DNA of 46,555 nt, taken from the NCBI GenBank assembly GCA_029547805.1, contig JAKPOP010000005.1:1-46555 (forward strand), read 5' to 3'. The stretch comes from Deltaproteobacteria bacterium. Its GTDB lineage: Bacteria; Myxococcota_A; UBA9042; DTJE01. The position numbers were made by a program, and so were the translations under genes. This document shows, piece by piece, positions 17,097 through 35,110 of this stretch. The notes under the pieces were generated by a model. The model saw only the letters and a program-made list of their open reading frames with translations, made no database searches and was not told the DNA's origin. Position 1 is the first letter of the stretch. Every line of letters begins with the position of its first letter.

Positions 17097-19130
17097 CTAC
17101 CAGGAGGCCTGGCAACCCCCGCCTCGGCGCGATGGGACCGGATCGGCCAGGAAGCCGTCGTCCATGGTGGCCCCCTCGGGCACCACTCCCGGGTCGTCCT
17201 CCGGACCGACGTCCGCCAGGGCCGCCTCCGGAGCCAGATCCGGTCCGGCCTCGGCCGGAGGGAGATCGGGCCCTTCCTCCTCGGGCATTCCCCCAAGGTC
17301 CTCCGGGACCGGGATGTCCTGGTCCTCGGGCCCCGGTTGCGCGGGACACCGGATCCGCAGCAACAGGTCCCGGGTGAAGGCGGGAAGGTCCAGCCGGAAG
17401 CCCCCGGCCCCCGATTCCTCCAGGACCCCCGACTCGGCCTCCAGGGCCGGCTCGTGGACCCGCACGGCCGTCCATTCCCGACAGCGGCCCTCGATCCCGT
17501 CCAGACGCAGCGTCACGCCCTCGAAGACCGTCCAGGACCCCTCGGGGTCCCGATCCCAGTCCGACAAGGGGTCGTGCAGCCATGCCAGCAGGCCATCGGG
17601 CAGCCGCGATGCCGCCGTCCAGAGGCCTCCCGGGGGGCCTCCTTCAAGCCGGACCCCATCGGCGGTTCCCAGCACCCCCGTGACCTCCAGGCGTTCCAGG
17701 GCCCTCTGGCCCAGGTTCCAGCCCGCCAGGGGCCCCGGTTCCTCGAGCCAGGAGTCCCACCACCAGGACATCACGCCACCGGTGTACCCCAGCATCACGC
17801 TCCAGAGCGTCCCGTTGACCAGATGGACCGCCTCCTGGTCCCTCCGGTTCGCCTCCCCCAGGTAGTCGATCCCGAACTCGCCGACCACCACCGGCTTTCC
17901 GTATGCCAGGAGGGGTCCGGCAAAGACCTCCAAGGCGTCCCAGTAGGACTTCAGGTAGGTGTGCAGCTGGACCAGGTCATAACCCTCGAAGTCCCAGTCC
18001 TGATCCGAAAAGGCTGGCAGGGCGTAGGACGTCGTCACCAGATGGCCGTAGGGGTCCCATTGCCGCAGCAGGGAGACCCGCTCCCGACTCCAGCGGGAGA
18101 CGATCGCGGGGTCGTAGCCTTCGATCAGGTCCACCTCGTTCCAGAGTTCCCAGGCCAGGATCGCCGGCGAGTCACCGTAGCGGGCAACGAGATAGCGCAT
18201 CCGCCGGTCGAAGCCGTCCACCACGTCCGGGTTCGTGAAGAACTCCATCGAGGCCTGGCACGGGCCGCCGTTGGCCGCGTTCCAGGGGTTCTGCTCCCAG
18301 GAGGACCAGTGGGTGGTCTGGAACTGGGAGTGCTGCTGGAACACCAGTTGGAGCGCGACCCCCTGAGACTCGGCCAGTTCCAGGATGCGATCCAGGCGGG
18401 CCGCGGCCTTCTGGTTGTAGCGCCCCAGTCCCTCGTAGGCCCCCCCGTCGGCTCCCGCGAGCCACTCCAGCGCCGTTCCGTCGAAGGACGTCATCCATTT
18501 CCGGCTGAACCCCCCGGAGCAACGGGCGAACCACCGCTCGTAGTCCCCGGTCCCCTTCGGACCCATCCACCCGGCATTGAATCCGTACGGGACAAAGGGT
18601 CGCCCGTCCCGTTCCAGGGCGGGCCGCCCGTCCCGGACCGTCCGCCGGACATACGGATCGATTTCGTCTCCTGTCACGTTCAATGGTTGTGTCTCTACTT
18701 GCGAAGTGCCTTCGCCGGGAATCGTCACCTCGGCGGCCACCCGCCAGGTCCCCGGTCTCCGGGCCCGGAACCTCGCCCGGAAGGAGGCCTCGCCGTCCTC
18801 GATCCACCGCTCGCCGCCATCCTCGGTCTCCTCCCGGCGGAAGGGACGCATCCAGAAGGCCTCGACCGGAATTGGGGTCTCGTCGCCGTCCCGCCAGAAT
18901 CCCATCCGGACATGCACCTGGCGATCGTCGTTGGGGTCGGCGAAGGACCGGTCGATCCGGACCTCGTACTCGACCCGTCGGCCCGTGGACACGGGACCAC
19001 TCCCGTCGATCCGGACCACCTGGACCCCTGGGAAGGCCGTCACCGCCACGGGCGCCGCCAGCACTCCGAGGATCCCCCACCACCATGGGACGACGGGGGC
19101 CTTGAACCGGATTGAGGGGCTTCGGGTCAC
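17097..19130 (-). CDS. Exported GH5-like glycoside hydrolase with acidic C-terminal linker
   Basis: A 677-residue exported protein. A hydrophobic signal segment (about 13-32) is followed by an Ig-like region resembling DUF5060 (RVEYEVRIDRSF, 50-145). A TIM-barrel glycosidase follows: catalytic acid/base in ILAWELWNEVD (about 331) and nucleophile in VVVGEFGID (about 415). The substrate is unknown; beta-mannan or beta-glucan are family possibilities. The last 80 residues are Asp/Glu/Pro-rich and end RRGGGCQASW. GTG 19130 is chosen because GGAG lies 7 bases upstream and the codon overlaps the preceding stop (GTGA), implying coupling with the FAD protein. The tail lacks the membrane helix of a MYXO-CTERM. 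Confidence 0.85.
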   Translation of the reverse strand: MTRSPSIRFKAPVVPWWWGILGVLAAPVAVTAFPGVQVVRIDGSGPVSTGRRVEYEVRIDRSFADPNDDRQVHVRMGFWRDGDETPIPVEAFWMRPFRREETEDGGERWIEDGEASFRARFRARRPGTWRVAAEVTIPGEGTSQVETQPLNVTGDEIDPYVRRTVRDGRPALERDGRPFVPYGFNAGWMGPKGTGDYERWFARCSGGFSRKWMTSFDGTALEWLAGADGGAYEGLGRYNQKAAARLDRILELAESQGVALQLVFQQHSQFQTTHWSSWEQNPWNAANGGPCQASMEFFTNPDVVDGFDRRMRYLVARYGDSPAILAWELWNEVDLIEGYDPAIVSRWSRERVSLLRQWDPYGHLVTTSYALPAFSDQDWDFEGYDLVQLHTYLKSYWDALEVFAGPLLAYGKPVVVGEFGIDYLGEANRRDQEAVHLVNGTLWSVMLGYTGGVMSWWWDSWLEEPGPLAGWNLGQRALERLEVTGVLGTADGVRLEGGPPGGLWTAASRLPDGLLAWLHDPLSDWDRDPEGSWTVFEGVTLRLDGIEGRCREWTAVRVHEPALEAESGVLEESGAGGFRLDLPAFTRDLLLRIRCPAQPGPEDQDIPVPEDLGGMPEEEGPDLPPAEAGPDLAPEAALADVGPEDDPGVVPEGATMDDGFLADPVPSRRGGGCQASW

Positions 19131-22103: not shown

Positions 22104-24053
22104 ATGCGCCGTCCTGCCGCCATCCTGCCGGCCTTGCTGGCCCTGGCCGCCTGCCAGGGGACCCCCTCGCCCGGCCTCTCGGGCCTGGATCTCCCGCCTC
22201 CGAACGGGGACGACTCGTCGTCGGGGGACCGGGACTTCGCCGGGTCCGGGGAGTCGGGCCGGGACCCTGCGGAACCGGACGGAACCCCCTCGGAGGTCCC
22301 GCCCCCCGAGTGCACGACCTCGGACCAGTGCGACCTGGGCAAGGTCTGCGTGGACGGGCGCTGCGAGCCCGGCTGCCTCCAGGACCGGGACTGTCCCTCG
22401 GGCCGACACTGCCTTCCCGAGGCCCTCCCTCACGGCTACTGCGCCGAGTGCGTGACGGACCTCCACTGCCCCGACGGGCGCTGCCTGGAGGGGGTCTGCC
22501 GACGAGCCTGCATCCTGCAGCAGGACTGCGCAGGCCTCTCGGACGCGCCGGTCTGCGACCCCATCGTCGGGGCCTGCGTGGGCTGCATCGCGGACCAGGA
22601 CTGCGCCGCGGGTACCGTGTGCGAGTCCCGGACCTGTCGAACAGGTTGCCGGGGCGATGGGAGTTGCCCGGTCGGGATCTTCTGCGACCGAAACGTCCAG
22701 CCCTACGGGTTGTGCGTCCCCTGCGTGGTCGACGGCCACTGCGCCCAGGGCCTCCTGTGCCGGGACCACCGCTGCATCCAGGACTGCTCCCGGATTCCCT
22801 GCCCCTTCGACCGGCCGGTCTGCGTGCCAGAAACGGGAGAATGCGCCGAGTGCATGGGAACCGACGACTGTCCCGGGGGCAAGACCTGCATCGGCAACGC
22901 CTGCGTTGAGGGCTGCCTGTCGGACCGCGACTGCCTCGCGGGTCTGCACTGCACCGACGGATCCCCCGGGGAGTGCGTCTCCTGCACGGAAGACTCCCAC
23001 TGCTCCCCGGGCTGGCACTGCCTGGATCATGCCTGCATCGGACAGCAGTGCCAGCAGGACGGCGACTGCGGCGACGGTCGCTACTGCCATCCGGTGGTGC
23101 AGGTGTGCCTGGACCTGCCTCCGGGGGCCTGCACCACGGACCGGGACTGCGGGATCATCCCCGGGACCCAGATTGGCCGGAACTGCGACCCCCTGAGCCG
23201 GACCTGCCTGGCCGAGTGCCTTCCTGGCAAGGTCTGCATGGACTCCTCCCGGTTCTGCATCGACGGTTCCTGTTACGGCTGCCGGGCCAATGCCGACTGT
23301 CCCGGGACCCTCTGCAGCCCCCTGGATCGCGAATGCCGCAAATGCACCGACGATGGCGACTGCCTGCTGGCCGGATGGCACTGCGACAGCCGCACCGGGG
23401 CCTGCCATCCCTGCACCTGGGACGCCCATTGCTCCCCGGGGTATCACTGCCACCCGGAGAAGTTCCGCTGCGTCGAGTGCCTGACCTCCCTGGACTGCCA
23501 GGACCCGGAGCGGCCGGAGTGCAGCGCCGGGAACCTGTGCGTCGCCGCCTGTGCCGACGACTGCCGGGAAGGGGAGGCCCAGTGTGCGAAGACCTCCACC
23601 GGGGCCGTCGGAGTCCGGACCTGCGGGCGCTTCGATGGGGACCCCTGCCTGGAGTATGGTCCCGCCGTGGCCTGCCCGGCCGGGACCCTCTGCGGAACGC
23701 TTCCCGACGGTGGCACCGGCTGTCGCTGCGACGCCCCCTGCCCCGAGGGCGAATCCCGATGCACCACCGCCGGCGGCACCGCCCGCGAGACCTGCCGGAA
23801 GGTCGCCGCGTCGGGTTGCCTGGCCTGGGTCTCCGACCCCTGTCCCGAGGGGTCCGCCTGCAACGGAGGCCAGTGCCCCTGCACCGGCGAGTGCCGCTAC
23901 GGCGAGAGCCGCTGCGACCCCTCCCAGATCAACGTCTCCCTCTACTGTGGCCGTGGGGACAGTCCATGTCTGCACTGGATCCGGGTCCCCTGCGACACCG
24001 GTGCCTGGTGCAACCCCTCCACGGGCCAGTGCAACCCATCCGGCGGGGCCTGA
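22104..24053 (+). CDS. Cysteine-rich repeat lipoprotein
   Basis: A 649-residue lipoprotein: signal peptide, lipobox LALAAC (Cys 17), then a short acidic Pro-rich linker. The rest is a run of Cys-rich modules of about 35-45 residues with a recurring pattern such as CVDGRCEPGCLQDRDC or CDLGKVC, like the disulfide-rich repeats abundant in Myxococcota surface proteins. The even spacing of Cys pairs suggests a rigid extracellular rod. There is no catalytic motif, so an adhesin, structural or binding role is inferred. A textbook AAGGAGGT lies 5 bases before the ATG. It converges with the GH2-esterase gene, and a REP-like sequence follows the stop. Confidence 0.88.
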   Translation: MRRPAAILPALLALAACQGTPSPGLSGLDLPPPNGDDSSSGDRDFAGSGESGRDPAEPDGTPSEVPPPECTTSDQCDLGKVCVDGRCEPGCLQDRDCPSGRHCLPEALPHGYCAECVTDLHCPDGRCLEGVCRRACILQQDCAGLSDAPVCDPIVGACVGCIADQDCAAGTVCESRTCRTGCRGDGSCPVGIFCDRNVQPYGLCVPCVVDGHCAQGLLCRDHRCIQDCSRIPCPFDRPVCVPETGECAECMGTDDCPGGKTCIGNACVEGCLSDRDCLAGLHCTDGSPGECVSCTEDSHCSPGWHCLDHACIGQQCQQDGDCGDGRYCHPVVQVCLDLPPGACTTDRDCGIIPGTQIGRNCDPLSRTCLAECLPGKVCMDSSRFCIDGSCYGCRANADCPGTLCSPLDRECRKCTDDGDCLLAGWHCDSRTGACHPCTWDAHCSPGYHCHPEKFRCVECLTSLDCQDPERPECSAGNLCVAACADDCREGEAQCAKTSTGAVGVRTCGRFDGDPCLEYGPAVACPAGTLCGTLPDGGTGCRCDAPCPEGESRCTTAGGTARETCRKVAASGCLAWVSDPCPEGSACNGGQCPCTGECRYGESRCDPSQINVSLYCGRGDSPCLHWIRVPCDTGAWCNPSTGQCNPSGGA

Positions 24054-24077: not shown

Positions 24078-27000
24078 TCATCGCATCCAACCTTCTGTGT
24101 TCATTGCGCTTTCCGTGGATTCCGATCCACGTCCCGCTCCGCGTCGGGACGGTGTCACGGGCGGGTCCCCCGACACGATCCGCTCCGGGGCTCCCCCGTG
24201 CCAGAATCGGCCGATCACCTCGGGAAGGGTGAAGTCGCCATCCCCCCGGCGCCATCCCGGCGTGCGGCGGGTCACGTCGTGGAAGGATTCCCAGGACAGG
24301 AACCACCAGGCCTCCAGGTCCCGCGGCGGATTCCCCTCGGTCCCCGGGTCCGCCAGGAGCACGTCGGCCCACTGCCGCAGTCCGTACCGGACCTGAAAAT
24401 CTGCATCGTCCGGGTGGTTGTGGTAGGCCGCGAACGTCGGGTCCCGGAGGCTCTGGACCACCAGCACCGGCAGCCCCATTCCCCGGGGAGCCGGCTGGGC
24501 CAGCGCCGGGACCGACCATCGACCGAACAGGCAGTCCCCCGGATCCCCGCCGGATCGAATGCGCGCCTCCTCACAGACGGGGTTCATCCGAGCCTGGAAG
24601 AACCGGTGGGCCCCTCGGATGACCGCCTCGTCCCCCTCCTCGGCCATCATGACCCGGGCGTCGGGCTCGTCCCAGTCGTGCACCAGGAACCCGGCGTCCA
24701 GCATCACCTTCAGGTCCCCTCGGGCCGCCACGCCCGGCAGCAGGTCCGCCAGCACGTCGACCGTCGCCGCGGCCCCGAAGGCCCCCGACGAGGTCCCGTG
24801 GTACAGCACCCGGGTCCCCGGGGCGTCCACCATCCCGTAGCGGGCCGCCAGGGTCTCCGCCAGGGCCTGCACCGCCAGCCGTCCCGAGAAGAACCAGCCC
24901 TCCTCCGGGCTCATGATCACCGGAATCCGGCGGGTCCGGGTGCCGGCCCAGAAGTCCGAGGAGCAGTACCAGGCAAAGACCAGGTTCGCCTGGGCAAACT
25001 CCGGGTTCTCGGCGGGGTCGGGGTCCAGGATGCCCCCGCACTCGTCGTCCGGGACCTGGGTCTCCCGGTCGCCGTAGGGCGGCGCCCCGGAGAGGTCGGG
25101 GGTCCGGAGGCACGGCACCGCCGCCTCCTCGCAGAAGCCTCCTCCCCGGAGCGAGACCACGTAGTCCCGGGAACCGGTCGGGGAGACCCGGATGCGGAAC
25201 GCGAAGGCCGAACCATCGTTGCAGAGGGCCATCCCGTGGCGTTCCGGGTCCCGGACGGCCGGCACCACGACCTCGTACCGGGCCGGGTCCTCGATTCCCC
25301 GACGACAGGCCGTGACGTCCCGCCCGAGGCAGTCGTCGCGGCAGGGCGCCTCTCCGCCGGGGGCGAAGGACGCCCCCAGGTCCTCGCAGGGAACCGGTGG
25401 ACCATCGCAGACCTCGCCGGGGTCCCGGACGCCATCCCCGCAGGACGGTTCGACGGGCCTCCGGATGCCCCCGGGGTCCGAGAAGGCCCGGGCCACGACG
25501 TGGAAGGCCTCCTTGGGACGCCGCCACAGGTCCACCAGGCCCTTCAGGTTCGTCCGGTCCACCGGCGGCGGTTTCGCGGTGTCCTGGCGCCACTGCATCC
25601 GGAAGTCCGCCAGGACCCAGGGCATCACCCCCCGGATCCAGGGCCGGTCGGCGAAGGCCCCGAGGTGCCGCCGGTGGAACCAGGCCTGGTACTCCTCGCT
25701 GAAGGAGTGGGCGTCGGTCGGCTCCTCCCCCGGTGCCCGGAACTGTCGGCGCCCCAGCAGGGCGTCCGCGCCGTACTCGCTGACCAGGAAGGCCTTGTCG
25801 GGCCAATGCATCAGCGCCCGGTCCAGGATGTCTCCCAGGTCGGTCGTCTCCCCCTCGTACCACCCGGCGTACTCGTTGATTCCGATGATGTCCACGGGTG
25901 CCTGCCCCGTGTCGAAGGGGGTATAGGACACCAGCGGTTCCGACAGCGACGCCATCATTGTCGGTCGGGTGTCATCCAGGGCCCTGACCGCCTCCACCAG
26001 GGACCGCACGAACGGCTCGGCATCGGGGACGAAGGTCCAGATCTCGTTCGCGACACTCCAGACGAGCACGCCCGGTCGCGGCTGGTCCCGAACCACCATG
26101 CGCCGCAGGGCGCGACGGGCCGCGTTGACCAGCACCGGGTCCTGGAGTTGCGGCTCCTCCCACTGGTAGACCGGGACCTCCTCGGCCAGGCCGATCCCGG
26201 CCCGTTCCATGGCACGCAGGGTCCGGACGTCGTTCGGGTAGTGGGCCCCCCGGAGGAAATCCACGTGGAGGGCCTTCAACAAGTCCACGTCCTGTCGAGT
26301 CCCCTCCGGGTCGAAGACCGGGCCGTGGAGGGGGTGGTCCTCGTGGCGGTTCATGCCGTGCAGGAACACGTCCCGGCCGTCCCGCCACAGACGGCCCTCC
26401 CGGACCTCGAAGGACCGGAAGGCCACGTCGTAGAGCCGTCGGTCCCGTCGCCCCTCGTCGTCCTCCAGCAGCACCTCCAGCGTCCAGGGGGCCCAGGCTT
26501 CCTCCGGCAGGCGTCCCCGATTCGGGTCCGGGACCGTCGTATCCAGGGCCAGTCCCCCCCGGAAGTCCGCCGGGAGGGCCACCGGGCCGAAGACCCGCTC
26601 GACGTCGCCTCGGCGGAGCAGTCGGGCCGTGAATCGCGTCTCCGCCCCGGGTCCCACCGTCTCCAGGAAGACCTGGGCCCGGAAGACGCCGGTGGCCGGA
26701 TCGGCCCGGACCTGAACCCGGGTCACCGCCCGATCCAGGGCGCCACAGACCGACACGGGCCGGATGAGGCCGCTCCAGGGCATCCAGCCGTGCAGTCCCT
26801 GGTGAAAGGACAAGGTGCAGGGAAGCGTCCTGGGCCCCAGGCGGCTGTCCACCCGGACCACCAGCAGGTTCGGGCCGTCCCGGGACACGAAGGGCGTGAC
26901 GTCGAAGGAGAATGGCAACCACGGAAGGTCCTCGTGGCCCACCTCCTGGCCGTTCCAGAAGACCCGGACTTCCCGAAAGGCGCCGTCGAACCGCAGAATC

Positions 27001-27515
27001 CACCTCGGGACGTCGCCATCGAGGGGCGGCAGGGTCACGGCGTACCACCCCACCCCCTGGCGGTCGAAGAGGTCCGGCAGCCCGACGTCCCAGGCCGCCG
27101 GCACCGGGATCTCCCGCCATGGACGCCGGTCGGTCTCCGGGAGGAACCACCCCTCGGCGAGGCCGACCTCCTCGGGGTCGAACCGAAAGCGCCACATTCC
27201 CCCGAGCGCCCCGATGGCCTCCAGCAGCGCGGCCTGGCCGGGACACTCCCCACCGTCCCAGGCCGTTTCCGCCGGCCGGGTCCCGGCCATCACCGGATCC
27301 TCCTCCGGGGCCAGCAGGGTCACCCCTTCCGGCAGTGGGGCCCCCTCGTCCCCACCCGCGTCTCCCGGGAGGTCCTCCAGGACCCCTTCCCTGCCCCGGT
27401 CCTCCGAGGCGGTATCATCCGCGAGGTCCGGTCCCCCCGCGCCTCCCCCGTCACCGCCGCAGCCCCAGAGGGCTGCCACCCCAATCGCGACTGCGACCCA
27501 CCGCTTCGCCGACAC
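24078..27515 (-). CDS. GH2 glycosidase fused to pectin-acetylesterase/Notum-like esterase, lipoprotein
   Basis: A 1145-residue lipoprotein: lipobox LWGC (Cys 19) and an acidic Gly/Asp linker. A GH2 sugar-binding domain and immunoglobulin-like domain (about 90-370) are followed by a GH2 TIM barrel: acid/base in LVWSVANE (about 485), nucleophile in FLVSEYGAD (about 577). A Cys-rich linker starts SCGDGVRDPGEVCDG (about 692). A pectin-acetylesterase/Notum-like alpha/beta hydrolase follows: RGGGFCEEA (about 788), Ser in YHGTSSGAFGA (about 903), possible His in ESFHDV (about 1075). It could cleave a beta-linked sugar and an acyl ester on one glycan. GTG 27515 follows AGGAGG; codons further upstream lie in the promoter. 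Confidence 0.87.
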   Translation of the reverse strand: MSAKRWVAVAIGVAALWGCGGDGGGAGGPDLADDTASEDRGREGVLEDLPGDAGGDEGAPLPEGVTLLAPEEDPVMAGTRPAETAWDGGECPGQAALLEAIGALGGMWRFRFDPEEVGLAEGWFLPETDRRPWREIPVPAAWDVGLPDLFDRQGVGWYAVTLPPLDGDVPRWILRFDGAFREVRVFWNGQEVGHEDLPWLPFSFDVTPFVSRDGPNLLVVRVDSRLGPRTLPCTLSFHQGLHGWMPWSGLIRPVSVCGALDRAVTRVQVRADPATGVFRAQVFLETVGPGAETRFTARLLRRGDVERVFGPVALPADFRGGLALDTTVPDPNRGRLPEEAWAPWTLEVLLEDDEGRRDRRLYDVAFRSFEVREGRLWRDGRDVFLHGMNRHEDHPLHGPVFDPEGTRQDVDLLKALHVDFLRGAHYPNDVRTLRAMERAGIGLAEEVPVYQWEEPQLQDPVLVNAARRALRRMVVRDQPRPGVLVWSVANEIWTFVPDAEPFVRSLVEAVRALDDTRPTMMASLSEPLVSYTPFDTGQAPVDIIGINEYAGWYEGETTDLGDILDRALMHWPDKAFLVSEYGADALLGRRQFRAPGEEPTDAHSFSEEYQAWFHRRHLGAFADRPWIRGVMPWVLADFRMQWRQDTAKPPPVDRTNLKGLVDLWRRPKEAFHVVARAFSDPGGIRRPVEPSCGDGVRDPGEVCDGPPVPCEDLGASFAPGGEAPCRDDCLGRDVTACRRGIEDPARYEVVVPAVRDPERHGMALCNDGSAFAFRIRVSPTGSRDYVVSLRGGGFCEEAAVPCLRTPDLSGAPPYGDRETQVPDDECGGILDPDPAENPEFAQANLVFAWYCSSDFWAGTRTRRIPVIMSPEEGWFFSGRLAVQALAETLAARYGMVDAPGTRVLYHGTSSGAFGAAATVDVLADLLPGVAARGDLKVMLDAGFLVHDWDEPDARVMMAEEGDEAVIRGAHRFFQARMNPVCEEARIRSGGDPGDCLFGRWSVPALAQPAPRGMGLPVLVVQSLRDPTFAAYHNHPDDADFQVRYGLRQWADVLLADPGTEGNPPRDLEAWWFLSWESFHDVTRRTPGWRRGDGDFTLPEVIGRFWHGGAPERIVSGDPPVTPSRRGAGRGSESTESAMNTEGWMR

Positions 27516-27547
27516 GCGATCCTCCTGGGACCTGGGCACTGGGCCTC

Positions 27548-27814: not shown

Positions 27815-29455
27815 ATGGAAAAGTACGAACTGATGAACAAGGCCCTGATGCCCGTGGACCAGATGCTCGGCGTGGGACTGGAGGCCCTGCAGAAGGCGGG
27901 CCTCTACGGCCCCCTGAAGCAGAAGGTCACCGAGACCTCCAAGCAGATCCTGCGCGCCTCCTTCCAGAAGCAGTACCAGCTGGAGGTCATCGGCGAGGAG
28001 AACATCCCCGAGACTGGCGGCTGCATCATCGCCTCCAACCACAAGTCCTGGCTCGACGCCCAGGTCCTGGGCGTCGCCACCCGTCGCCGGCTCTTCTTCG
28101 TCGCGAAGGCCGACTTCAAGGAATGGCCCCTTCTCCGCCGCCTGATCGACCTCTTCGATGGCATCTATGTCCGTCGCGGCGGTGACCAGGAGGCCCTCGA
28201 GGCCATCTCCCAGGCCGTCCGGGACGGCAAGGCCGTCGTGATCTTCCCCGAGGGGACCATCCCCGGGGAGGAGGACGTGCCCCGCTGGGAGGTCGAGAAG
28301 GACACGGGCCTGCTCCGAGGCAAGACCGGCGTCGTGCGCATCGCGATGGCGACCGGGGCCCCGGTCATCCCGTGCGGCCTCTCGGGCACCGGTCAGGCCT
28401 TCCCTCCCGAGGCCTACCCCCGCCTCCAGGTCTTCCCCCCGCTGCCGAAGCCGGCGCCGGTGACCATCCGATTCGGCAAGCCCCTCTATTTCCGCAAGCC
28501 CGAGGACCAGGAAATCACCCGGGAGTTCCTGGCCGCCGAGACCAAGAAGGTCATGCTGGCCATCTCGGCCCTGGTGGACCACACCCGGGACTACGTGCCC
28601 GTCATGGTGCCCATCGTGGATCGCACGGAGCCCACCGCGATTCCGCGCTATGCCTACCGCCGCTCCCCCGAACGCCTCAAGAAGGGCCAGAAGGCGCCCC
28701 TCGGCGTGCTGGTGATCCACGGCTTCACCTCGGACATCCACTGCGTCGATCCCCTCGTGAAGCCCCTGGACGACGAGGGACTGCCGTATCGCTTCCCGGT
28801 TCTCCGAGGCCACGGGACCCGCTACCAGGACATGGACGGGGTCACCCACCGGGACTGGTACGAGGATGCCGAAAACGCCCTGCTGGACCTCTACCAGGAG
28901 GTCGAGAAGGTCCTGGTGATCGGCCACTCCATGGGGGGTCTGGTGGCCCTGGAACTGGCCGCCCGGCACCGGGACAAGGTCGTCGGCGTCGTCCCTGCGG
29001 CCGCCGCGCTTCGCTTCAAGGACCCCCTGGCCTTCCTGACCCCCTTCGTGGCCCGGTTCGTGAAGTGGTGGCCGTCCCCGAACGCCTACGTGGATGACAC
29101 CCTCCGGAAGCGCGAGAACCGGAACTACCCGAAGTTCGCCACCAGCGCCTTCGCGTCCCTCTGGGAGTACTCCCAGCAGGTGGAGAACCTCCTGTCCTTC
29201 GTGAAGGCCCCGGCCCAGATCCTCCACAGCCGCAAGGACCAGGTGGTGTCCCCCGTCGCCTCGGAGATCATCTACGAGAAGATCTCCTCGAAGGAGAAGG
29301 ACCTCGTCTGGTTCGAGAAGAGCGGCCACGAGATGTTCCTGGACCTGGAGGCCCAGGACGTGGTCCAGGCAGTGATGACCTTCGTTCGCCGGATCCGCGC
29401 CCAGGTCCAGGCAGATCGCGGCGGCACGCGTCCGGTCGCCAGCCAGGGGGCCTAG
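27815..29455 (+). CDS. PlsC-type acyltransferase fused to alpha/beta-hydrolase lipase
   Basis: A 546-residue fusion. Residues about 55-260 form a 1-acylglycerol-phosphate acyltransferase domain with NHKSWLD (HX4D, 75-81) and FPEGT (144-148). Residues about 295-530 form a monoacylglycerol-lipase/carboxylesterase-like hydrolase: IHGFT, nucleophile elbow GHSMGG (about 369), Asp in SRKDQVV (about 475) and His in SGHEMF (about 504). One chain could remove and re-add acyl groups, a lipid-remodelling cycle; this is inferred. No signal peptide is seen. GGGAGGA lies 4 bases before ATG 27815. Its stop TAG shares the palindrome CTAG with the stop of the convergent DUF192 gene. Confidence 0.88.
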   Translation: MEKYELMNKALMPVDQMLGVGLEALQKAGLYGPLKQKVTETSKQILRASFQKQYQLEVIGEENIPETGGCIIASNHKSWLDAQVLGVATRRRLFFVAKADFKEWPLLRRLIDLFDGIYVRRGGDQEALEAISQAVRDGKAVVIFPEGTIPGEEDVPRWEVEKDTGLLRGKTGVVRIAMATGAPVIPCGLSGTGQAFPPEAYPRLQVFPPLPKPAPVTIRFGKPLYFRKPEDQEITREFLAAETKKVMLAISALVDHTRDYVPVMVPIVDRTEPTAIPRYAYRRSPERLKKGQKAPLGVLVIHGFTSDIHCVDPLVKPLDDEGLPYRFPVLRGHGTRYQDMDGVTHRDWYEDAENALLDLYQEVEKVLVIGHSMGGLVALELAARHRDKVVGVVPAAAALRFKDPLAFLTPFVARFVKWWPSPNAYVDDTLRKRENRNYPKFATSAFASLWEYSQQVENLLSFVKAPAQILHSRKDQVVSPVASEIIYEKISSKEKDLVWFEKSGHEMFLDLEAQDVVQAVMTFVRRIRAQVQADRGGTRPVASQGA

Positions 29456-32591: not shown

Positions 32592-35110
32592 ACATCATGG
32601 CATGGTCGCTCGGCGCCTTGCTGGTCCTGGGGCTATCTCGATGCGGCGGCGACGGAGGCGGGCAGCGTGCAGACCAGGGCCTCCCGGACCAGGATGCCAT
32701 GACGGCGGACGTCCCGGTGACCCCTCCGGACCTCCTGGACCTCCCGGGCTCCGACGATGCCTCCATCGACGATGCGGTCGAGGACGCGCCTGGAGACCTG
32801 GCCGTGGAAACCGGAACGGACACCCCCGAGGACCTCCCGGACGCCCCCGGTCCGGACGCGACTCCCGGGCCTCCCTACTGGCGCCACGTGAACCCCTTCA
32901 TCGGCACCGGCGGCGAACTGGCCAACGTCGGCAGCGCCCTTCCCGGGGCCACGGCGCCCTTCGGCCTGGTGAAGGTCAGCCCCGACACCCGGACCGCCTA
33001 CGGGGCCTCCCAGTTCCAGCACTGCGCGGGATACCACTACGAGGACGACCTGATCGCCGCATTCACCCACAACCACCTCCACGGGACCGGCGCTCCGGAC
33101 TACGGCAACATCGGCATCATGCCCGTCACGGAGATGACCCCCTCCAAGGTCCAGCCCTTCGGGATGGTCGCCCCTTTCACCCACGAAGGCGAGGAGGCCT
33201 CTCCGGGCTACTACGCGGTGACGCTGCTGGACCCGGCGGTGCGCGTGGAACTGACGGCGACGACCCGCTGTGCCCATCACCGCTACACCTGGATCGGGGG
33301 GACCGACCGGGGCATCCTGGCGCTGGACCCCACGACCAAGCTCTTGAGCGGCCACAGCATGGGTGGCGAGGTTCATGTGCTGAACAACGGCCGGACCATC
33401 GAGGGCTGGAATCACGCCACCGGAGACTTCTCGGGTCGCTACGGCGGGTTTCCCATCCACTTCACTCTGTCCGTCGACCGGGATCCGGTCTCCTTCGGAA
33501 CCTGGTTGGACGGCCTCCTGGAAGAGGGCCGGTCCTACGTGGCCACTTCCAAGGACCCCGCCCACTTCGGGGCGTGGCTGGTCTTCAACACGGCGACGGA
33601 CCCCGTGGTCGAGGTCCAGGTCTGCCTCTCCTATGTCGATCTGGACGGCGCCCGGAACAACCGACGCGCCGAGATGCCCGTCTTCGACTTCGAAGGGACC
33701 AGGGAGGCCACTCGGGAGGCCTGGGAGCGCGAACTGGCGCGGATCGAGGTCCAGGGGGGCACGCCGACGGAGTGGCGGAACTTCTACACGGCAATCTACC
33801 ACGCCCTCCAGATGCCCACGATCTGGAGCGACGCCGACGGCCGATTCCGGTCCTTCGACCGCGACTCCCTGACTCCTCACGTGGCGCCGGACTGGACCTA
33901 CTACACCGACATGTCCCTCTGGGACACCTTCCGGACCGCCCACCCGCTCTACCAGTGGGTCTGGCCGGACCGCCAGCGGGACATGCTCCGGTCCCTGGCG
34001 GTGATGATGGCCACCGGAGGCTGGACGCCCCAGTGGCCGATGGGGGCCGGGGACACCGGGAGCATGATTGGCCAGCACGCGGCCAGCGTGTTCGGGGACT
34101 GGGTCGCGAAGGGGATGTCCCTCGCGGACCTGCAGGCCGCGGGCATTCCGGGTACCGACCCCGACGGAATCTGGACCGTGCTCCGAAGGAACGCCGACGG
34201 GCCGGCCCAGGGCCCCGGGGCCTACGGGAACCGGGACTGCATCGAAGACGTGCTGGCCCTGGGCTACTGCCCCTCGGATCGCCACGGGGAGAGCGTCTCC
34301 CTGACGCTGGAATACGCCTTCAACGACTTCTGCATGGCCGAAATCGCCCGCTCCCTGGGTCAGGGGGACGACGAGAACCGCTACCGGGAGCGCGCCGGGT
34401 ACTGGCGCAATCTCTGGCACCCCGAGACCGGCTTCTTCCGACCCCGGCTGGCCGACGGAACCTTCGACCCGGCCCCCTTCGACCCCACCGAGTGGAACCT
34501 GGGACGGGGACACTACGTCGAGGGAAGCGCCTGGCAGTGGACCTGGTTTGTTCCCCACGACCCCGCCGGCCTCCGGGAGGTCTTCGGCGGCGACGAGGCC
34601 TTCCGGGACCGTCTCCGATTCTTCATGGAGTCCTTCATCGGGGACTTCGACTTCCTGATCCCGTCCAACTACTACTTCCAGGGCAACGAACCGGACCTCC
34701 ATGCCCCCTTCCTGGCCACCGAGGCTGGCCGCCCGGAGTGGACCGAGCGGTGGTCGCGCTTCATCCTGGACTCCTGCTACCGCGACGAGCCGGGGGGGCT
34801 CATCGGCAATGACGACGGAGGAACCCTGGCGGCCTGGTACGTCTTCGCCGCCATCGGGCTCTACCCATGGCCCTGCCTGCCCCACTACACACTGACCGCC
34901 CCGATCTTCGACCGGGTCACAGTGCACCTGCCGTCGGGAGACCTCCGGATCGAGGCCCCCGGGGCCGCCGGCCGACGAGACCTCTTTGTCCAGGCGGTGC
35001 GTTGGAACGGCACACGGCTGTCCGACCGCCGGATCGACCACCGGGACCTGGCCCGCGGCGGCACCCTGACCTTCGAGATGGGATCAGGGGCCCTGGAGTC
35101 GGGTCAGTAG
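32588..35110 (+). CDS. GH92 family exo-alpha-mannosidase, lipoprotein
   Basis: An 840-residue lipoprotein: signal peptide with Cys 19 (LGLSRC), then an acidic Asp/Pro linker to about residue 95. The GH92 N-terminal domain opens VNPFIGTGG and continues LPGATAPFGLVKVSPDT and HNHLHGTGAPDYGN. The C-terminal domain has HYVEGSAWQWTW (about 645), the proposed general-acid region GNEPDLHAP (about 699) and NDDGGTLAAWYVFAAIGLYP (about 741). GH92 enzymes are calcium-dependent and trim alpha-linked mannose. GGGGAGG lies 6 bases before the ATG. Overlap with the NtrC-type gene implies co-expression. Its last 27 bases overlap the convergent CPBP gene. Confidence 0.93.
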   Translation: MNIMAWSLGALLVLGLSRCGGDGGGQRADQGLPDQDAMTADVPVTPPDLLDLPGSDDASIDDAVEDAPGDLAVETGTDTPEDLPDAPGPDATPGPPYWRHVNPFIGTGGELANVGSALPGATAPFGLVKVSPDTRTAYGASQFQHCAGYHYEDDLIAAFTHNHLHGTGAPDYGNIGIMPVTEMTPSKVQPFGMVAPFTHEGEEASPGYYAVTLLDPAVRVELTATTRCAHHRYTWIGGTDRGILALDPTTKLLSGHSMGGEVHVLNNGRTIEGWNHATGDFSGRYGGFPIHFTLSVDRDPVSFGTWLDGLLEEGRSYVATSKDPAHFGAWLVFNTATDPVVEVQVCLSYVDLDGARNNRRAEMPVFDFEGTREATREAWERELARIEVQGGTPTEWRNFYTAIYHALQMPTIWSDADGRFRSFDRDSLTPHVAPDWTYYTDMSLWDTFRTAHPLYQWVWPDRQRDMLRSLAVMMATGGWTPQWPMGAGDTGSMIGQHAASVFGDWVAKGMSLADLQAAGIPGTDPDGIWTVLRRNADGPAQGPGAYGNRDCIEDVLALGYCPSDRHGESVSLTLEYAFNDFCMAEIARSLGQGDDENRYRERAGYWRNLWHPETGFFRPRLADGTFDPAPFDPTEWNLGRGHYVEGSAWQWTWFVPHDPAGLREVFGGDEAFRDRLRFFMESFIGDFDFLIPSNYYFQGNEPDLHAPFLATEAGRPEWTERWSRFILDSCYRDEPGGLIGNDDGGTLAAWYVFAAIGLYPWPCLPHYTLTAPIFDRVTVHLPSGDLRIEAPGAAGRRDLFVQAVRWNGTRLSDRRIDHRDLARGGTLTFEMGSGALESGQ

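Follow-up and report, generated by a model that had tools for sequence, protein, structure and literature searches.

A predicted lipoprotein joining a GH2 hexuronidase-type domain to a PAE/Notum-type esterase domain in one uncultured Myxococcota family

We identified, in a 46,555-nucleotide stretch of DNA (the window), a gene for a predicted lipoprotein that carries a GH2 glycosidase domain, a six-cysteine module, and a PAE/Notum-type esterase domain on a single chain (Table 1). This fusion is a new combination of two well-known families and is conserved in one uncultured Myxococcota family. We hypothesize, leaning modestly toward this reading, that the protein works in two steps, which would be the deacetylation of acetylated glycans followed by release of their terminal beta-uronic acid.

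Table 1. Features of the fusion gene and its neighbors (window positions).
Feature	Position	Strand	Basis or remark
GH2-Cys module-PAE lipoprotein gene, 1145 aa	24078..27515, stop included	-	open frame, Pfam
Shine-Dalgarno AGGAGG, 5 nt ahead of GTG start	27521..27526	-	sequence
Signal peptide with lipobox LWGC, predicted lipidated Cys19	27459..27515	-	sequence
Acidic Gly/Asp/Glu-rich tether, residues 20-85	27261..27458	-	dN/dS 0.5, fast evolving
GH2 domain, residues 86-685: sugar-binding, immunoglobulin-like, TIM barrel; NxK hexuronidase type	25461..27260	-	Pfam, alignment, model
GH2 general acid/base Glu491 (WSVANE)	26043..26045	-	alignment to AqGalA 7vqm
GH2 nucleophile Glu580 (VSEYG)	25776..25778	-	alignment to AqGalA
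NxK motif Asn656-Leu-Lys658	25542..25550	-	alignment
Six-Cys module, residues 692-737	25305..25442	-	sequence, relatives
PAE/Notum (CE13-type) alpha/beta-hydrolase esterase domain, residues 746-1115	24171..25280	-	Pfam, alignment, fold match
Predicted nucleophile Ser909 (GTSSG)	24789..24791	-	aligned to GSSAG of NOTUM 4uzj
Predicted triad Asp1025 (QSLRD)	24441..24443	-	alignment of 26 PAE domains
Predicted triad His1079 (SFHD)	24279..24281	-	alignment of 26 PAE domains
Divergent neighbor, acyltransferase and alpha/beta hydrolase fused in one protein	27815..29455	+	adjoins fusion within genus only
Convergent neighbor, 649-aa Cys-rich lipoprotein, many short Cys repeats	22104..24053	+	no Pfam match; conserved within genus

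The gene is a single open frame from GTG at 27515, behind a strong ribosome-binding site, to the stop at 24078 (1145 codons), and its third-position GC is high throughout, the linker included, in the manner of coding periodicity. Three Pfam domains score above cut-off in this one frame, as expected from the preliminary description, which had placed a GH2 and a PAE/Notum enzyme on one chain: PF02837 at residues 103-255 (E 1e-10, 42.2 bits, cut-off 28), PF02836 at residues 370-639 (E 1.2e-28, 100.6 bits, cut-off 21), and PF03283 at residues 753-950 (E 8.6e-23, 81.4 bits, cut-off 26.6). The same description had called the product a surface lipoprotein, and this agrees with a signal peptide closed by the lipobox AALWGC19, the hallmark of bacterial lipoproteins, and with a lipobox-like cysteine at a similar site in three relatives (L020, L021, and L022). 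Compared with a genus relative, dN/dS is 0.20 in the GH2 domain, 0.24 in the linker, and 0.21 in the PAE domain, against 0.5 in the tether; both halves are under purifying selection.

The same fusion runs uninterrupted in a second genome of the genus (G001, 81% identical) and in a genome of another genus of the family (G003, 52%). In a third genus (G008) it is split by a contig end only, and the missing part of the PAE domain lies at the start of a second contig. In a fifth genome, a 540-codon N-terminal fragment extends as far as the available sequence does. Fusion-bearing genomes thus represent three genera of one Myxococcota family. An artificial join or frameshift, which the preliminary description had named among the findings that would undo it, is ruled out by these intact relatives. 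More broadly, every genome involved is a draft or metagenome assembly, and an artefact joining two genes has been weighed accordingly; we give it next to no probability, given an uninterrupted frame in three separate assemblies with an identical junction and a conserved linker. The genes that flank the fusion are common to genus members only and are unrelated outside the genus, indicating that the fusion has stayed whole in differing gene neighborhoods. Synteny was dropped as a clue to substrate, being conserved within the genus only.

PAE domains are common in the phylum, occurring in 201 of 377 sampled Myxococcota genomes as opposed to 4 of 395 Bacteroidota genomes. The CE13/Notum family is best known from plants and animals. 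A domain search for the same GH2 and PAE order, as had been proposed, found it in the window's family and in no other genome among the 377 Myxococcota; likewise, none of the PF03283 matches of the 395 Bacteroidota genomes was a fusion, as judged by frame length. Plasmid records offered no place covering 80% of the query, and eight PAE frames of other Myxococcota, most of them long, contained no second Pfam domain. A wider contig scan, made with two GH2-based peptide patterns only, returned five loci, three of which are known fusions from the same assemblies as G001, G003, and G008 (identical contig numbers and positions). The suggestion that this architecture had not been described agrees with our searches of a part of the open-access literature, in which we found no description of a GH2-CE13 fusion.

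The preliminary description had also pointed to a disulfide-rich spacer between the two enzymes. Six cysteines are indeed present at residues 692-737, but the module is not peculiar to the fusion: it lies just upstream of the PAE domain in a close relative that lacks GH2 (L101 of genome G376) and in tandem copies in an otherwise unrelated protein of the family (L060). In the PAE tree, the fused domains fall in a seven-row clade (99/100) together with GH2-free proteins, and the nearest non-fused relative by tree path is L101, the exact sister being unsettled in the tree. In the simplest history, a pre-existing Cys-module-PAE lipoprotein would have gained a GH2 domain behind its signal peptide and ahead of the Cys module.

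In the GH2 half, Asn490-Glu491 and Glu580 align to the acid/base and nucleophile positions of AqGalA and are invariant in the alignment, which includes Bacteroidota GH2s. The NxK residues Asn656 and Lys658, the loop-8 arginine (Arg639, placed by sequence), and the tyrosine of NEYxGWY do not vary in the alignment either, although two of its Bacteroidota GH2s are distant (24-25% identical). In GH2 beta-hexuronidases, NxK binds the carboxylate of the substrate, and the motif sets these enzymes apart from beta-galactosidases (PMC12243196). The domain scores 158.8 bits against NF007538, the beta-glucuronidase equivalog, whose cut-off is 544 bits, and by this sequence measure it is a distant relative of the equivalog, not a member. 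An AlphaFold model gave a GUS-type fold for the GH2 part, with blocks mostly at pLDDT 70-90, and all 50 fold matches listed for the modelled half were glucuronidases, galacturonidases, or hybrids of both. They include human GUS at Z 31.9 (549 residues aligned, rmsd 3.0) and, at Z 30.9, the E. tayi galacturonidase; rows no more than 1 Z apart count as tied, and the list for the whole model covers residues 15-625 of the modelled stretch. Both catalytic glutamates that a working GH2 site would need are present by alignment, in a half that models as a GUS-type fold. The half is a predicted beta-hexuronidase-type domain, with glucuronic and galacturonic acid both candidate sugars.

The Ser-Asp-His triad of the PAE half (S909-D1025-H1079) looks complete in the alignment, as the preliminary description would have it, in a domain whose model has a pLDDT of 45. 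Among 26 Myxococcota PAE domains, the Ser909 column holds serine in 24 (not in L080 or L086), the Asp1025 column aspartate in all 26, and the His1079 column histidine in 25 (not in L080). L080 (G184:C639), in which GTEAG replaces GxSxG and the catalytic histidine is absent, is a probable inactive paralog. Two structure predictions drew on few relatives and were poor, with pLDDT mostly 25-60 over the PAE part in the first and a mean of 45 in the second. In a separate observation, a viral contig (IMGVR_UViG_3300042691_025708; L123 2968-3765, plus strand) encodes a 265-aa PAE-like protein with CNDG, YCSSD, and GSSAG, directly after phage tail-type genes and ahead of an amidase-like frame, possibly a tail-associated deacetylase.

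Motifs NxxxDxxQ and HCQ, which characterize plant PAEs (PMC5465549), are not found in the fusion PAE, where QSLRDPTF and FHDV stand instead, and the clade of the fused domains lacks the Asn and Gln that flank the catalytic Asp in plant PAEs and Notum. Given the absence of these residues, the substrate may differ from that of plant PAEs or Notum. The PAE half might, like animal Notum, remove a longer acyl chain, or it might act on proteins with lipid or acyl modifications or on glycolipids of the envelope. A sequence search of solved structures with the PAE half returned Notum only, as did the significant Foldseek matches of the weak model, and both plant PAEs and other polysaccharide esterases of CE13 are missing from the PDB matches; the absence of plant PAEs may simply mirror what has been solved, and coupling to a hexuronidase points toward a glycan. 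We consider such a Notum-like role quite improbable.

No operon or glycan-utilization locus surrounds the fusion gene, which stands alone, and the link to a substrate is thus genome-wide only. GH28 is present in five of five fusion-bearing genomes (one of these a fragment) as compared to two of eight other family members (Fisher p 0.016, and 0.03 if the fragment is left out; small numbers, uncorrected for phylogeny), and a GH88-family protein is present in four of the four fusion-bearing genomes searched for GH88/GH105. In the window's genome, the closest solved relatives of this protein are GH105, and it shares its chain with a heparinase II/III-like domain that is similar to alginate lyases. 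A search of four genomes for the common uronate isomerase UxaC found none, so that use of released uronate would need another route.

That GH88/GH105 frame (L129 2997-6569, minus strand; G000:C22:73000-80000) is a lipoprotein-like frame of 1191 aa, with the heparinase II/III-like domain at 488-659, whose nearest solved match is an alginate lyase, and GH88/GH105 at 862-1185. It is a second one-chain fusion of uronic-acid-degrading steps in the window's genome; G001 also has a long frame at the counterpart locus, and G003 and G008 have short GH88 frames. The window itself also encodes a predicted secreted glycosidase of the alpha-mannosidase family GH92 (32699-35110, plus strand, about 803 aa) and a protein predicted to be secreted that matches a GH5-type domain weakly (17097-19064, minus strand; PF00150, below cut-off).

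In homogalacturonan and rhamnogalacturonan I, GalA carries acetyl groups at O-2/O-3 (PMC5465549). Together with the GH28 and GH88/GH105 genes, this favors acetylated pectic or similar uronic-acid glycans as the target. Acetylated bacterial polysaccharides are a serious rival to pectic glycans: prey cells or sludge biofilm could supply an exopolysaccharide or capsule with acetylated uronic acids as the target. At least one MAG that carries the fusion is apparently from a sludge digester, and Myxococcota are described as abundant in activated sludge with many predators among them (PMC11821767, PMC10196010). With the GH28 and GH105-like genes favoring pectic material, we regard a bacterial target as somewhat unlikely.

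For the favored two-step reading, we infer enzyme activity, substrate, and the cooperation of the two sites. The protein would be anchored as a lipoprotein on the surface, or facing the periplasm, and both of its active sites would work. Its C-terminal PAE domain would strip O-acetyl groups, presumably acetyl rather than longer acyl, through its Ser-Asp-His triad, and the N-terminal GH2 domain would then free a terminal beta-linked glucuronic or galacturonic acid by the retaining two-Glu mechanism. Deacetylation probably comes first, because acetyl groups would block an exo-acting pocket with hydroxyl-reading residues. With one lipid-anchored chain, the two reactions would take place at a single site on the cell surface, and the likeliest substrates would be pectic side chains, or other glycans with uronic acids, that carry acetyl groups and occur in sludge-type habitats. 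The concerted attack on a decorated glycan proposed in the preliminary description is plausible, and NxK narrows it to uronic-acid glycans; the concerted part of that proposal remains our inference.

Both enzymes may instead be active on different substrates, with fusion providing co-expression and co-localization only. Close PAE relatives without GH2 (L101, L102, and L092), GH2 paralogs without PAE (L016), and a flexible tether and Cys module suggestive of beads on a string are consistent with such independence. Retention of the fusion in three genera, in differing gene contexts and with both halves under selection, fits a shared pathway better, and we judge independence unlikely. Returning to cooperation, a more specific and only tentative form is that a Notum-type esterase clears acetyl groups from a terminal uronic acid, which then passes to the hexuronidase on the same chain, within a wider habit of the family of fusing consecutive uronic-acid-degrading steps. 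If the sites cooperate, the protein would be a compact means of attacking glycans on which acetyl groups obstruct exo-hexuronidases, and it would offer a bacterial role for a CE13/Notum-type domain that can be put to the test. The fusion also shows that enzymes for successive steps of uronic-acid processing have been joined in a lineage-specific way in an uncultured group.

Among known systems, the Myxococcota lipoprotein L101 shares with the fusion a signal peptide, the same six-Cys module, and a PAE domain, but has no GH2 between signal peptide and module. GH2 beta-hexuronidases, a group that takes in subfamilies GH2_2/3/4/8 and is represented here by the GUS enzymes of E. coli and human, AqGalA 7VQM, and Eisenbergiella tayi GalA 6NCW, share with the fusion protein the domain order, NE acid/base, SEYG nucleophile, NxK, and fold (Z about 31), whereas the fusion protein is 20-27% identical to them over the structural alignment, is a lipoprotein, and bears a C-terminal esterase. 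Plant PAEs and Notum of CE13 (PF03283) share with it a PF03283 match above cut-off, GxSxG, the aligned Asp and His, and the CNDG and YCSSD motifs; in contrast to these, the fusion PAE belongs to a Myxococcota clade without NxxxDxxQ, is preceded by a six-Cys module, and is joined to a GH2 domain.
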